Shown here piece after piece: positions 4,371-41,132 of a stretch of 64,000 bases of DNA (the stretch's first letter is position 1; every line of letters begins with the position of its first letter). The DNA is taken from the NCBI GenBank assembly GCA_002694745.1, contig NZMY01000036.1, forward strand, positions 1-64,000, written 5' to 3'. Position numbers and translations under genes: made by a program. This stretch comes from Croceicoccus sp. (lineage in GTDB: Bacteria > Pseudomonadota > Alphaproteobacteria > Sphingomonadales > Sphingomonadaceae). The notes under the pieces were generated by a model. The model ran no database searches and had not been told where the DNA came from. It saw only the letters and a list, made by a program, of their open reading frames with translations.

Positions 4371-5096
4371 TCAGCTTTCCGGAGCCAAAAGCGCCTCTGC
4401 AAGCCGATCCAATTCAACTTTGGTATCCCTCCAACCTCGCATATGCCGATCAAGCAAATGGTAAAAATGCTTGCTGTGATTGTGCTCTATCAAATGACAG
4501 AGCTCGTGAAGAATGACGTATTCGATACAGTGGCGAGGCGCCCGGATAAGCGCGGGATTTAAGATAACAGTCCCCTCTGGCGAGCAACTTCCCCATTGCG
4601 TCTTCATGCGCATGAATTTCAGAGGGGGAGCCGTGTTGATCCAGGGTAGCCGGTCTGCAACTTTCAAAAACTTGGCGGTCAGATATTCCGAAGCCCGCCT
4701 GTCATACCAGGCAAGGAGTCTGCGCTTAACCGCAGCTCTGTCGGCAACAGGCAAGCTCACCTCGAGCTTGCCTCGCAAGAGTTTGACCCCCGAGTGACGC
4801 TTACTCGCTTCCTTCACTAGGAGCTTATGCCGCTTCCCGAGGTAAAAGTGTGTTTCGCCGCTCACATACTCACGCGGCAACGCCTCACGTCGCGCAGCAA
4901 TGGCAGCATTCCTATGTTGAAAAATCCACCTCGCCCGGCGTTGTGCGGCGTCCCTTATTTGCGCAGTTTCCTTATCCAAGGGAGCTTCAATTTCGACATC
5001 ACCGTTCGGGTAAACGTGAATACGCACACGGCCTTTGACGGCAGCCGAATGGCGCACGGTGCAAGAGACCACTTGATCACCGTATCGAACAATCAT
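4371..5096 (-). CDS. YgjP-like (DUF45) metallopeptidase
   Basis: A 241-residue protein with the zincin motif HELCHLIEHNHSKHF near residues 195-209 (HExxH plus a downstream histidine) and the preceding RMKTQWGSCS block typical of YgjP/DUF45 metal-dependent hydrolases. Its ATG overlaps the hsdR stop (ATGA), making it the last gene of the restriction operon. Members of this family are often encoded directly after type I hsdR. The role there is not established; a protease that processes or restrains HsdR is a guess. No signal peptide or membrane segment, so cytoplasmic. Confidence 0.85.
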   Translation of the reverse strand: MIVRYGDQVVSCTVRHSAAVKGRVRIHVYPNGDVEIEAPLDKETAQIRDAAQRRARWIFQHRNAAIAARREALPREYVSGETHFYLGKRHKLLVKEASKRHSGVKLLRGKLEVSLPVADRAAVKRRLLAWYDRRASEYLTAKFLKVADRLPWINTAPPLKFMRMKTQWGSCSPEGTVILNPALIRAPRHCIEYVILHELCHLIEHNHSKHFYHLLDRHMRGWRDTKVELDRLAEALLAPES

Positions 5097-8000
5097 GTCT
5101 TCGCACCGCCAGCACGAGAAAGGCCAACGCGGGTTACCTCGACAACCTTCTCGGTAATAACCTTTGCCTTGTCCAAGCCGGTCAGGCCGAACAGGCGCGG
5201 CAACAAAGCTTTTCGGATAGCCGCTTCAATGTTTGCCGGGTTCAACGAGTTTTCTGCAATGGCACTTTCGACGGACTTCTCCATGTCCAGCGCTGCCTGG
5301 ATGAATTCTTCTTGCTCATCCCCCTTTGCGAGCTCGTCCCCTATCTCCAACCGGATAATCCCGAAATAGGCGCTCGCATGGCGGTGACCTGCGAGGCGTT
5401 TAGGCAGGTCATCGATGGACTTGGAGGCGAGCTTTTCCTCCAAATCCTTGAACAGGATGTATTGCTTGTAAGGGTGGTCGAAAAGCGCGGATGCTTCTGC
5501 AATGGCCCGCTTAAGAAGGTCGGAAAAGAACAGCTGCGCATAGGGATCATCGGCCAGCTCCTGCTCGATAGTCTTGCGGACTCTGGATCGGATGATGTCA
5601 GTTTCGTTGCGTGTTTTTTCAGGGGACCAGGTTTCGGCAGCCTGCTGATTTCCAAACTCGTTGACGACCAGGACGCCGTCCACATTCTCCACGTCCTCAC
5701 CTACAACATAGCGATCGACCAGTCTCCTGATCTGATCTTCGTAGGCGCTGTAATCGACGGTTTCCTGTGCGTCCTGCTTCACGATCTTGCGCAGGTTAGT
5801 GAAGAACTTGACGTCTCGTTTGTATTCCGCAATCTGCCCTTCGGTGATTGATGTGTCTTCGAAGAACGAACGCGATCCCAGAGCAATCTTCAGGCACATG
5901 CCGTAGGCTGTCAGAGCCTCGTAAAAATCCTCCCTGATCTTCTGGTTCAGGTCGATCGGTATTCCATCCTCGCTCTCGCGTGTTTGCGGAACCAAAAGCT
6001 GCCGATACTGCTCGATATCGGCCCTGTTCTTGACCGGCTTGAAGATTGCCCATAGGTCGGCGTGGAGGCCTGGCAATCGCTTATATTCAGTGCTGACATC
6101 GGCATAGAGTTCGTCAATGTCGTCGAGATCGAAGCCGCCTTGTGTGCGTTCGGCGAGGTCCTGATATTCCGTGAGCGCGGTATCCAGCGCCTTCAGAATG
6201 CCTCGATAGTCGATGAGCAAACCATACTTCTTCTGCTCATGCAGCCGGTTCACGCGAGCAATGGCCTGGATCAGATTGTGCTGTTCAAGTTTCTTGTCGA
6301 TGTAGAGAACGGCGTTCCGCGGTTCATCAAATCCGGTGAGCAACTTGTCGACCACGATCAGGATGTCGGGTCGGCCCTCGGTCGAAAAATCCTCGATCAC
6401 CTGGCGCTCGTAATCCTCGGCGTCGCCTTGGACGTTCTCCTTCCACCATTGCAGCACTTCGGGCAAATCTGCCTCATCCACCTCAGAATGGCCTTCGCGA
6501 GTATCGGGAGGTGAAATGACGATGGCGCTGCTGACCAGTCCGGTTGCATCCAAGGCCTTCTTGTAGCGGATGGCTGAGCGCTTGGAATCGGTCGCCAGTT
6601 GACCTTTCAGTCCGAGGTCGAGATCCTTGAAGTTGTCCTTGAAGTGGGTCGCGATGTCGACTGCGATCAGATTGATCCGATCGCCAGAGCCATAGACCGC
6701 GCCCTTGGTTCCAAACTTCTTTTTGAGATCGCCCTTCTGCTCGTCGGAAAGGCCAGCGGTGACCTTCTCGAACCAGTTGTCGATTGCGCGCTCGTTCACG
6801 TCGAGGACCGGCTTGCGTTCCTCGTAGAGCAACGGCGTAACCGTGCCGTCCGACACGGCATCCTTCATCGTGTAGGCGTGAACAATGCGCCCGAACTTGT
6901 TAGCAGTCTTGTCGTCCTTCAGCAGCGGAGTGCCGGTGAACGCGACATAGGCGGCGTTTGGCAGCGCTTTGCGCATCCGCTCGTGGTTCTCGCCGCCCTG
7001 GCTACGGTGGCCTTCGTCGACCAGCACGATCATGTCCGCGCTGTCGTTGCGGCATTCAGCGTGTCGCGCTGCGCTGCCGAATTTGTTGATGATCGTGAAG
7101 ATGATCCGCTCGGTGCCCTTGCCGATGCACTTGGCCAGATCGCGGCCCGATTGCGCCTTGGCCTTGCCCGCATCTTTTGAGCCGATGTCCGAGCCGAAAG
7201 CGCCGCCCGTCAGGAAGTTGCCTGCCAGTTGTTTCTCCAGGTCGCGCCGGTCGGTCACAACGACCAGGCGGCACGCCTTTAGCTTCTCGTGCAGCAGCAG
7301 CGCCTTGCACAGCATCACCATCGTGAAGCTCTTGCCCGAACCGGTGGTGTGCCAGATCACCCCGCCTTCGCGCGCGCCATCGGGTTTGATCCGGCTGATC
7401 CGGTCGAGCAGCGCGCGGATGCCGAAGAATTGCTGATGGCGGGCGACGATCTTGTCCACCTTGCGGTCGAACAGGACGTATGAGCGCACGAATTCCAGCA
7501 GGCGCTCAGGAGTGCAAAGGCCGATCAGCAGGCGGTCCTGCGCCGTCACGGCCTGCTCGTCGCTCCACAGGTGCTGGAAATGATCACGCACTTCGCGGAC
7601 ATGGTTCTTCAGGATCGCCGCGCGCGGGTCGGTGTCCTTTGCGGCGTTCTTGATCTGGCGGAAATGTTCCTCCGAAAACTCTTCCTCGCGCCACTGCGCC
7701 CAGAATTTTCGCGGGGTTTTGGTGGTGCCATAGCGGCCATCGGTCATCCCGATCGACATTAGCAGATGGGCATAGGCGAACAGGTGCGGGATTTCCTCCT
7801 GCCCCTGGTTGCGGATCGTCTGGCTGATGCCTTCATCCACCATCGACTTGTTGGGATTGCCGCTGTCGGGCCGCTTGGCCTCGATTACTAGAAGCGGGAT
7901 GCCGTTGACGAAGCCGACGATATCGGGCCGCCGCGTGTGGGTGCCTGGCACGGCAAGCACTTCCATCTCCTCGCTGGCGACGAAGCTGTTCGCCAGCGGG

Positions 8001-40700: not shown

Positions 40701-41132
40701 CGATGCCTTGGGCGTGCAGGCGAGCTTGGTATCGACCGGCTCATACGACCATGCCCCCAGCGATGAAGGTTCCTCGACCCGGATCAGGAAATCGGCATAG
40801 CCATGCCAGGGCGGGCACAGGAAGGCGGCCTGAAATATCGACTGCGCGCCGCTTTCCATCGCGGCAATGGTGGCTGCGGCCCGTTCCTCCAGCGTGCCGG
40901 TGGTCTCGATCTCGATCAATCCACCCTTTGCTTCGAGAAACTGGCGATAGGTTTCCTCGTGCTTCAGTCCCGCCTTCTGGGTCAGCACGTTTAAATCGCC
41001 ATCGGCGGCCTTGTCCGGCGCAGCATCGGGATCAGTTGCCTGCAGCAAATGCAGCGCCGTGGCATGGCCGCAACCGAGAAAGCGGACCAGATCGGAAGGC
41101 GCATGCAGCAGCGCGCCATTATGGATGTACAA
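37719..41132 (-). CDS. TM0106-type RecB-like nuclease fused to SF1 helicase
   Basis: A 1137-residue multidomain protein. The N-terminal RecB/Cas4-like nuclease has D in YADFLIRVEE, then VDTKLA as the (D/E)XK element and QLGLYARMM; a cysteine cluster CDACDLCAWRDHC near 220-232 probably binds Fe-S. A YprB-like RNase H fold follows (LFFDLEGDPLEEGGLDYLWG; YNRVDCENTEALRDWL). The C-terminal SF1 helicase has Walker A GPPGTGKTFTSAHVIAAL near 755, motif II VDEAGQVAVANL and TVDKFQGQEAEVVIVSM ... NVAISRAR. This architecture is usually a stand-alone gene. Here it heads a tight three-gene unit with mcrB and mcrC, which suggests it processes DNA for or alongside McrBC. Confidence 0.88.
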   Translation of the reverse strand: MYIHNGALLHAPSDLVRFLGCGHATALHLLQATDPDAAPDKAADGDLNVLTQKAGLKHEETYRQFLEAKGGLIEIETTGTLEERAAATIAAMESGAQSIFQAAFLCPPWHGYADFLIRVEEPSSLGAWSYEPVDTKLACTPKASHIVQLGLYARMMGQVQGDLPRRIHVATGDGQTHSFRLNLFSHVLRAAQRRYLDFIASGAPASRPEPCDACDLCAWRDHCNAEWESADHLSLVAGLGRPQAEKLRKAGIVTLGELATMEEGTRVPRMAQATLGKLQAQARLQQARREGGGPCVEPLPLEEGRGFHTMPPPDPADLFFDLEGDPLEEGGLDYLWGLHFRDGSLPAFRFEWAHDHEAERAAFESMIDWIAQHLRDHPGAHVYHYAPYEITSLRRLSTLHASREDLLDDLLRQRRFVDLYGVLRQSIRTSEPDLSLKTMEIFFAEKRDQAVVKADQSIVEYKSWQETGNQAILDGILEYNRVDCENTEALRDWLVSLRMANLPWREIGSATPVNEEKTEQRIAAEEAAAKLIDAILAASSPEDPRIRTLMAHLTQFHRRADKPALWAMFDRCERDADELVEDGECIGLIRPDGEEWLRAEKKSTVARYRFPPQDTKLREGKAVKHIPTLKVIGKIAKLDTRNGIVEVKRQLKAGESFPLDGGLMAEPTVRNAVLQGAIRRVACAWAGLDHETLEPLGERGDRLRYRALLRFLGREAPALHDWSGGPLVQEGESFVRAATLRCLALDESVLFIQGPPGTGKTFTSAHVIAALVAAGKRVGISSNSHKAVNNLLSRVADICERDGVTACILKKASSGNPDSAMEADNVTDVWSNSDVIDYHPDVVGGTAWLFADPDMDQQFDYLFVDEAGQVAVANLIAMGASARNIVLVGDQMQLGQPIQGSHPGESGQSALEYLLQDDATVAPDRGILLDTSWRMHPDICGFISEAVYDGRLKAHPDCAQQVLHIGEGADPALASHGIRFVPMDHEGCGQRSDEEITRIQALCDSLIGTGFTDRQGRAGTIGWENILIVAPYNMQVNALKAALPEEAQIGTVDKFQGQEAEVVIVSMTTSSPDDLPRHVDFFYSKNRLNVAISRARTLALVIANPKLLELDAKSVEHLALVNTLAWVAEIGAAEIGG

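Follow-up and report, generated by a model that had tools for sequence, protein, structure and literature searches.

The gene prrC lies between hsdS and hsdR, and phage Gam inhibits the Kiwa protein KwaB. Here we describe a 37-kb run of defense genes in Croceicoccus sp. (assembly GCA_002694745.1, contig NZMY01000036.1), in which a Kiwa pair sits inside a type I restriction-modification (RM) operon alongside McrBC, Druantia III and Zorya I genes. All coordinates refer to the 64,000 nucleotides at positions 1 to 64,000 of the contig, which we call the window.

In Kiwa, KwaA is the membrane sensor of infection, and KwaB attaches to phage DNA, blocking both replication and late transcription; in Zorya I, ZorC and ZorD are recruited by the ZorAB motor; and Ocr is listed as a counter to RM (PMC12904381). 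Unmodified DNA is cut by type I RM enzymes, and modified DNA is cut by McrBC and its relatives. One precedent for the Kiwa position is DarTG2 of the RRDM island, which occupies the hsdS-hsdR slot and is controlled by RptR (PMC12255303). For Druantia III, the synergy in print has Zorya II as the partner and depends on ZorE (PMC13192584).

A mosaic defense island

Positions 4371 to 41132 carry 18 head-to-tail open reading frames (ORFs), all on the minus strand, which we named from the ORF list with PADLOC and Pfam. In the order of transcription, the first half encodes a RecB-type nuclease-helicase, a McrB-like AAA+ protein, McrC, a WYL protein, DruH3, DruE3, ZorA1, ZorB1, ZorC1 and ZorD1, and the second half encodes a half-length HsdS, HsdM, RhuM (PDC-S05), HsdS, KwaA, KwaB, HsdR and a YgjP/M48 peptidase. 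The distances to the upstream gene (in nucleotides; overlaps are negative) are 3 for mcrB, −80 for mcrC, 49 for wyl, 115 for druH, 2 for druE, 32 for zorA, 3 for zorB, 181 for zorC, −34 for zorD, 62 for the half-hsdS, −4 for hsdM, −1 each for rhuM, hsdS and kwaA, −4 for kwaB, 9 for hsdR and −4 for ygjP. Spacing thus stays between −80 and 62 nt except at the WYL-druH and zorB-zorC intervals. All 18 ORFs are free of internal stops, and at least 93% of the best PADLOC profile is aligned for HsdR, KwaB, KwaA, RhuM, ZorD, ZorC, ZorB, DruE and DruH; for the remaining nine proteins, coverage was not judged or PADLOC matches were partial or lacking. Scans for tRNA genes and Rfam families returned no matches over the window, and loose PD-(D/E)XK patterns were discarded because chance matches were too numerous.

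A preliminary description of this DNA had counted nineteen consecutive genes on one strand. The genes are indeed consecutive and on one strand, and they number 18, or 19 if a small candidate ORF for the ZorC N terminus (see below) is counted. All the systems that it named (RecB-helicase/McrBC, Druantia III, Zorya I, type I RM and Kiwa) have PADLOC or Pfam matches, with ZorA to ZorD, DruE, DruH, KwaA and KwaB each matched by PADLOC, and the rep/par replicon is confirmed by genes for a RepA-type initiator, ParB and ParA at 45738 to 49382. Most junctions are overlaps or short gaps, as it stated; it located clear gaps only around the WYL gene and between zorD and hsd, thereby missing the 181-nt zorB-zorC interval. 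Its "Kiwa-like pair" is KwaA and KwaB, which form part of the hsd operon, with hsdS before and hsdR after them, rather than standing as a unit of their own; the location of KwaAB and RhuM inside that operon was absent from the description.

Instead of one super-cluster, the 37 kb comprise three mosaic blocks. We read the stretch as a mosaic plasmid defense island whose three blocks all represent known kinds of immunity directed at DNA, and assign this reading a probability of roughly 75%. Synteny with relatives holds for blocks and for the adjacency of Zorya I and Druantia III, and no other locus examined had the full set. A single conserved super-cluster was rejected, as only blocks recur in relatives.

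Kiwa nested in a type I RM operon

The third block in the order of transcription consists of the following genes:

13518..14144, minus strand, half-length HsdS (PADLOC Specificity_I PDLC03199, 2.5e-21; no Pfam match)
12013..13521, minus strand, HsdM (PF02384, 9.9e-107; NPPF motif)
11009..12013, minus strand, RhuM-family protein, PADLOC candidate PDC-S05 (PF13310, 4.2e-99; PDC-S05, 1.7e-128)
9774..11009, minus strand, full-length HsdS (PADLOC, 7.1e-90; PF01420)
9241..9774, minus strand, KwaA, between hsdS and kwaB, 1-nt overlap with hsdS (PADLOC PDLC00221, 4.1e-72)
8384..9244, minus strand, KwaB, 4-nt overlap with kwaA, 9 nt before hsdR (PADLOC PDLC00234, 1.6e-109)
5093..8374, minus strand, HsdR (PADLOC PDLC03041, E = 0; PF04313, PF18766)
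4371..5096, minus strand, YgjP-like M48/SprT metallopeptidase, closing the hsd operon (PF01863, 9.5e-54; HELCH motif)

The block contains all three type I RM subunits, HsdR, HsdM and HsdS, and an adjacent KwaA and KwaB, as in Kiwa. A profile of 9 KwaA rows matched the solved KwaA structure, and a profile of 19 KwaB rows matched the solved KwaB structure.

A KwaB scan of genome contigs yielded three relatives, Sphingomonas formosensis, a Sphingomonadales metagenome-assembled genome (MAG; L026) and Oricola indica, with the layout half-HsdS, HsdM, RhuM, HsdS, KwaA, KwaB, HsdR and YgjP; the MAG has an additional 445-aa ORF and a 372-nt gap ahead of KwaA. The same eight genes are present in genome G390 (HsdS and YgjP by place and alignment), and G394 (10% estimated contamination) has HsdM, HsdS, KwaA, KwaB and HsdR. 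Searching plasmids for Kiwa with tblastn returned a single record, Bartonella sp. HY406 plasmid unnamed4, which carries half-HsdS, HsdM, HsdS, KwaA (an unannotated gene, confirmed by HMM), KwaB, HsdR and a metalloprotease, without RhuM. This 23-kb record (NZ_CP104897.1; L037) has identical RepA and ParA accessions at both ends, reflecting either duplication or assembly redundancy. Viral contigs searched with the KwaB alignment gave 13 stretches, none of them a relative. Since the hsdS-kwaAB-hsdR nesting recurs in relatives, Kiwa as a separate neighbor of the RM system was rejected.

Percent identities to the window are given below in the order S. formosensis/MAG/Oricola/G390/Bartonella (RhuM, first four only):

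HsdM: 94/87/81/59/72
HsdS: 40/30/29/25/26
HsdR: 95/72/68/39/60
KwaB: 97/69/55/49/45
KwaA: 96/64/77/57/46
YgjP: 73/56/50/33/50
Half-HsdS: 57/47/42/29/36
RhuM: 79/79/55/49

The specificity subunit HsdS is the most variable part of the cassette. Across the seven close loci, KwaB distances correlate with those of HsdR (r = 0.80; P = 0.001) and HsdM (r = 0.72; P = 0.0006).

To place this arrangement in a wider sample, we looked for KwaB with PF16162 (E up to 0.001). Matches came from 5 of 385 class genomes and from 13 of 398 phylum genomes, which makes 17 distinct genomes (the G843 match is below the curated cutoff), and the locations of HSDR_N and N6_Mtase served to judge nesting. In 5 of the 17 (G000, which is the window's genome, G390, G394, G731 and G912), KwaB sits between HsdM and HsdR on a single strand; without the window's genome, this is so in 4 of 16. 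Two genomes are ambiguous: G418, at a contig edge, and G748, in which a reverse transcriptase precedes KwaA, Abi_2 and RhuM precede HsdR and no HsdM occurs on that contig. In one more, G875, KwaB is near hsd genes and outside the HsdM-HsdR span. The other nine (G478, G709, G797, G715, G837, G930, G685, G843 and G997) showed no HsdR or HsdM within 10 kb of KwaB, with KwaB close to a contig end and its surroundings partly unseen in G478, G930 and G685.

The nested KwaB proteins of G731 and G912 belong to a distant clade (15 to 17% identity to the window; KwaA, assigned by place, 15 to 19%). In a tree of 19 KwaB sequences, which includes four loci from other searches and omits G715 (a frame of 193 aa) and G685 (a 134-aa fragment where its contig ends), this clade unites G731, G912, G418 and the apparently non-nested G478 with a support of 1.000. 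The non-nested KwaB proteins of G837, G930 and G843 (27 to 40% identity) group next to the window clade, with weak branch support. Because two distant KwaB clades have members in the slot, Kiwa has possibly filled it more than once; at least two independent embeddings, or one old embedding with repeated loss, would both fit the tree.

In the distant clade, HsdS (PF01420) directly precedes KwaA, with a gap of 119 nt in G731 and a 4-nt overlap in G912, and further genes separate KwaB from HsdR: YhcG/DUF1016 and Schlafen-AlbA genes in G731 and, among others, an AAA_21 (putative AbiEii) ATPase in G912. These extra genes, like the additional ORF and gap in the MAG, are what would be expected if the hsdS-hsdR junction were a neutral slot, occupied by Kiwa by chance, with selection keeping the promoter only. 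The slot holds varied genes elsewhere as well, including DarTG2 and an RNA-binding/ATPase pair (PMC12255303) and TgvAB and RloF (PMC11411939). Against such hitchhiking, KwaAB has kept its place in the seven loci of the window clade although KwaB identity there falls from 97% to 42%, the junctions are short or overlapping except in the MAG, and KwaB divergence tracks that of HsdR. We consider chance occupation of a hotspot less likely than not.

The embedding of kwaAB in the hsd operon is also a feature of PrrC-type guards. The EcoprrI operon contains the gene for PrrC, a protein that the enzyme restrains and that becomes active when the enzyme is inhibited (PMC12707154, PMC3874165), and KwaAB could likewise be a sentinel whose state is set by HsdMSR and which anti-restriction inhibition releases or triggers. 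The tight hsdS-kwaA-kwaB-hsdR junctions, the correlated divergence of KwaB and HsdR and the two separate KwaB clades with members in the slot are all compatible with a guard. However, no RM gene was found near KwaB in 9 of the 17 genomes, Kiwa is described as a two-component system (PMC12904381), and the two-gene Kiwa of S. thermophilus protects when cloned on its own, without an adjoining hsd operon (PMC11514479). DarTG2 occupies the same slot under the repressor RptR, and a guard role is not reported for it in the excerpts of PMC12255303. No sequence feature linking KwaA or KwaB to Hsd subunits came up, although none was specifically searched for. We consider a guard improbable, and layered defense sharing one operon seems the safer reading. 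Within layered defense, Kiwa may be coupled to the RM enzyme or back it up, and mutual titration of DNA-mimic inhibitors is a possibility. A wider reading than the guard, in which KwaAB serves the type I enzyme as a functional accessory, i.e., a membrane-anchored backup that takes over or is released once a phage disables restriction, appears doubtful; if true, it would make the locus a composite "type I RM-Kiwa" system, not two neighbors.

Druantia III and Zorya I

The middle block consists of the following features:

28179..31502, minus strand, DruH, Druantia type III (PADLOC DruH3, 5.6e-171)
22123..28176, minus strand, DruE, Druantia type III, YprA-like helicase-nuclease (PADLOC DruE3, E = 0, 2053.8 bits; DEAH and QRVGRAGR motifs)
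19859..22090, minus strand, ZorA, Zorya type I (PADLOC ZorA1, 5.9e-197)
19124..19855, minus strand, ZorB, Zorya type I, OmpA-like C terminus (PADLOC ZorB1, 4.8e-89; PF00691)
18943..19123, minus strand, zorB-zorC interval, candidate ZorC N terminus (three-frame translation compared with a relative by eye)
17719..18942, minus strand, ZorC (EH signature), Zorya type I (PADLOC ZorC1, 3e-125, profile positions 25 to 427 of 432)
14207..17752, minus strand, ZorD, SWI2/SNF2 helicase with Mrr-like nuclease (PADLOC ZorD1, 4.2e-256)

DruH and DruE are adjacent, with a 2-nt gap, as in Druantia III, and the best matches in the same locus are to ZorA1, ZorB1, ZorC1 and ZorD1, as in Zorya I. No ZorE match occurred among the PADLOC families of the 18 proteins (the best 25 families for 5 proteins). 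The preliminary description had pointed to synergy between Zorya and Druantia III. Such synergy is reported, but for Zorya II and ZorE (PMC13192584), whereas the window has Zorya I; because no island gene matched ZorE, the published mechanism is not simply transferable, and we rejected carrying it over.

Relative to its profile, zorC as annotated is short of the first 24 positions, and an N terminus seen in a relative is missing. In another frame, the 181-nt interval before it holds about 62 codons that by eye resemble this N terminus and end in an ATGA overlap with the zorC start. The gene may be split, frameshifted or mis-sequenced, and the interval may be no real gap. The ZorC gene of the most similar relative (G198; 47%) also has one in-frame TGA. 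An out-of-frame zorC would suit a decaying collection in which some systems are dead and the RM/Kiwa block alone is active, as would the IS5 element inside RecB on a Croceicoccus marinus plasmid (see below) and the transposase genes beside the island. On the other side stand the 18 ORFs free of internal stops and the nine proteins that span at least 93% of their best PADLOC profiles, and we give decay a small chance.

Among 296 genomes of the order, DruH (E up to 1e-20) occurs in 7 and ZorC (E up to 1e-10) in 9; 3 have both (G000, G226 and G231; hypergeometric P = 6e-4, or 0.009 without the window's genome), 4 have DruH without ZorC, and 6 have ZorC without DruH. Druantia III and Zorya I are adjacent in all three genomes that hold both, in the order zorA-B-C-D-druH-druE in G226 and G231 versus druH-druE-zorA-B-C-D in the window. 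ZorB, ZorC, ZorD, DruH and DruE were tested in G231, with ZorA by position only; ZorA, ZorC, ZorD and DruH were tested in G226, with ZorB and DruE by size and position. In G226, the DruE-sized ORF is followed by HsdM, HsdS and HsdR, so that the combination of Zorya I and Druantia III with type I RM has arisen on more than one occasion. The closest DruH of the order sample (48%; G246:C3, L012) is followed by a 2019-aa ORF in the DruE place, which ends 86 bases from the contig start.

RecB-helicase, McrBC and a boundary at the WYL gene

The first block consists of the following genes:

37719..41132, minus strand, TM0106-type RecB-like nuclease (RNase_H_2) fused to an SF1 helicase (AAA_11/AAA_12) (PF13482, 1.7e-27; PF13087, 2.9e-30)
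34056..37715, minus strand, McrB-like AAA+ protein, 1219 aa (AAA_5, 1.4e-15; Walker A GPPGTGKT)
32684..34135, minus strand, McrC nuclease (PF10117, 8.8e-72, from residue 84)
31618..32634, minus strand, WYL-domain regulator (PF13280, 2.2e-12)

A McrB-type AAA+ motor and an adjacent McrC are both present, McrC by PF10117 and McrB, for which PADLOC matches are partial only, by AAA_5 and position. The mcrC ORF overlaps mcrB by 80 nt, and its true start is probably downstream of the listed ATG. A modified-base reader was sought in the McrB N terminus, and no Pfam domain was found before residue 704 (E up to 0.01). Of 186 order genomes, 15 (the window's genome among them) contain a McrB relative, and the RecB-helicase was found in 7 of these 15, always within about 7 kb of McrB and at times on the opposite strand. 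It is directly upstream of McrB on the same strand in the window's genome and in G129, and probably also in G134, where the McrB frame reaches about to RecB. The other eight McrB genomes gave no RecB-helicase match at 1e-15.

Searching 72,556 plasmids by megablast with positions 28179 to 49500 identified C. marinus pCME4A9II, which covers 59% of the 21,322 bases at 83% identity. By annotation, pCME4A9II has the same rep/par and HipBA genes, the TM0106 RecB (split by an IS5 transposase), a gene for an AAA ATPase and WYL, and the position of McrC is taken by a hypothetical gene; the two WYL proteins are identical at 287 of 333 aligned positions (86%). Homology stops at the 3′ end of WYL (boundary by eye). 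From there, the C. marinus plasmid continues with HigBA, another WYL gene and DruE-like, DpdE/DrmD-like and DrmMI-like genes (profile matches), which by our own assignment appear to fit the ARMADA description in PMC12458937. The corresponding record (L002) holds this ARMADA-like set, with its own WYL gene, at 1 to 12978. A plasmid DNA search with positions 4371 to 29300 gave two records with short matches only.

The replicon and its other genes

45738..49382, minus strand, RepA-type initiator, ParB and ParA, replicon context outside the island (PF10134, PF18090, PF13614)

The window's contig (C59) is 80,599 bp long in an assembly of 59 contigs. Its plasmid nature is well supported because of this RepA/ParB/ParA set, which is common to the window and pCME4A9II; circularity lies outside that support, and the 30-base contig start was absent from the last 16.6 kb of the contig. 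An integrase-core transposase (plus strand) and an HTH-only piece (minus strand) lie at 2508 to 4219, just outside the island on its ygjP side. A HipA/HTH toxin-antitoxin pair (42512 to 44025) separates the island from rep/par and is also present on the C. marinus plasmid. The window further has an SbcCD-like pair at 49746 to 54709 and an AAA/winged-helix protein, a PDDEXK_4 protein and a 190-aa ORF at 56794 to 60130, possibly a further defense unit; the C. marinus plasmid is annotated with genes of the same kinds. An NrtR-type regulator, an NMNAT-like/NUDIX fusion and NAMPT at 60127 to 63442 make up a plasmid-borne NAD salvage set. Phage NAD-restoring pathways, which this set resembles, counter NAD-depleting defense.

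Proposed working of the island

Judging from gene content, the first block would be a type IV-like restriction unit against modified DNA, placed beside rep/par and equipped with a WYL regulator that may control the island; another YprA-family system can sit beyond the same WYL gene. In the middle block, Zorya I, a nuclease system triggered at the membrane, would be paired with Druantia III, a helicase-nuclease that acts late. With Kiwa in the hsdS-hsdR slot, sequence-specific restriction and a membrane/DNA-binding barrier would be inherited, and probably expressed, together, so that phages beating restriction by modified DNA or anti-restriction proteins would still meet Kiwa at the membrane. 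If transcribed and active against phages, as the gene content suggests, the combined set would cover unmodified, modified and restriction-resistant phages.

Several results weigh against this picture. None of the other loci examined had the complete set of blocks. Since 9 of the 17 KwaB genomes showed no RM genes nearby, Kiwa does not need RM, and the S. thermophilus pair likewise protects alone. KwaA distances correlate weakly with those of HsdR (r = 0.43; P = 0.17) and HsdM (r = 0.36; P = 0.18) across the seven close loci. Zorya could be defective here if zorC is split or frameshifted. On pCME4A9II, about 2.9 kb with four hypothetical genes separate the McrC-position gene from WYL; therefore, WYL is not tied to mcrC. 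A promoter scan of 30.5 to 45.5 kb gave one site, on the plus strand, which is below the shuffled count and uninformative.

Comparison with known systems

Every component family of the island is already known. As far as our searches show, three features are new: the recurrent Kiwa-in-hsd operon, for which the literature search was limited and an earlier description is possible; the pairing of Zorya I with Druantia III, seen in either arrangement within this bacterial order; and the WYL boundary beyond which RecB-McrBC plasmids carry different YprA-type systems (two plasmids compared). The recurrence of Kiwa in hsd would join a membrane-triggered system to sequence-specific restriction in an apparent single operon. 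Compact loci of this kind lend themselves to three questions: does the cooperation of Druantia III with Zorya II extend to Zorya I, where ZorE is lacking; do defense genes in the hsdS-hsdR slot need the restriction enzyme; and how are entire defense blocks exchanged among plasmids at a WYL boundary?

Among the closest described arrangements is the Zorya II-Druantia III(-ARMADA II) array of E. coli (PMC13192584, PMC12458937), which also has Druantia III beside Zorya in a mobile, defense-rich region and near which, in several clusters, type I/IV RM is described as enriched. In contrast to these arrays, the window has Zorya I, with ZorC and ZorD and no ZorE match, its genes are codirectional on a rep/par replicon, and either gene order occurs among relatives. 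McrBC-linked YprA-helicase cassettes (ARMADA; PMC12458937) similarly place McrBC beside a YprA-like helicase system, whereas the YprA-type system of the window is Druantia III and a RecB-helicase lies upstream of mcrB. The third block follows the same operon logic as RRDM/DarTG2 (PMC12255303), TgvAB (PMC11411939) and PrrC/EcoprrI (PMC3874165), with Kiwa replacing the embedded genes; unlike those operons, it embeds KwaA and KwaB, a membrane protein and a DNA-binding effector, together with a half-HsdS, RhuM and a YgjP peptidase. Both Kiwa subunits are like those of described two-component Kiwa by HMM and by family-profile match to solved structures, but in the window the pair is nested between hsdS and hsdR, with junctions that overlap or span 9 nt.

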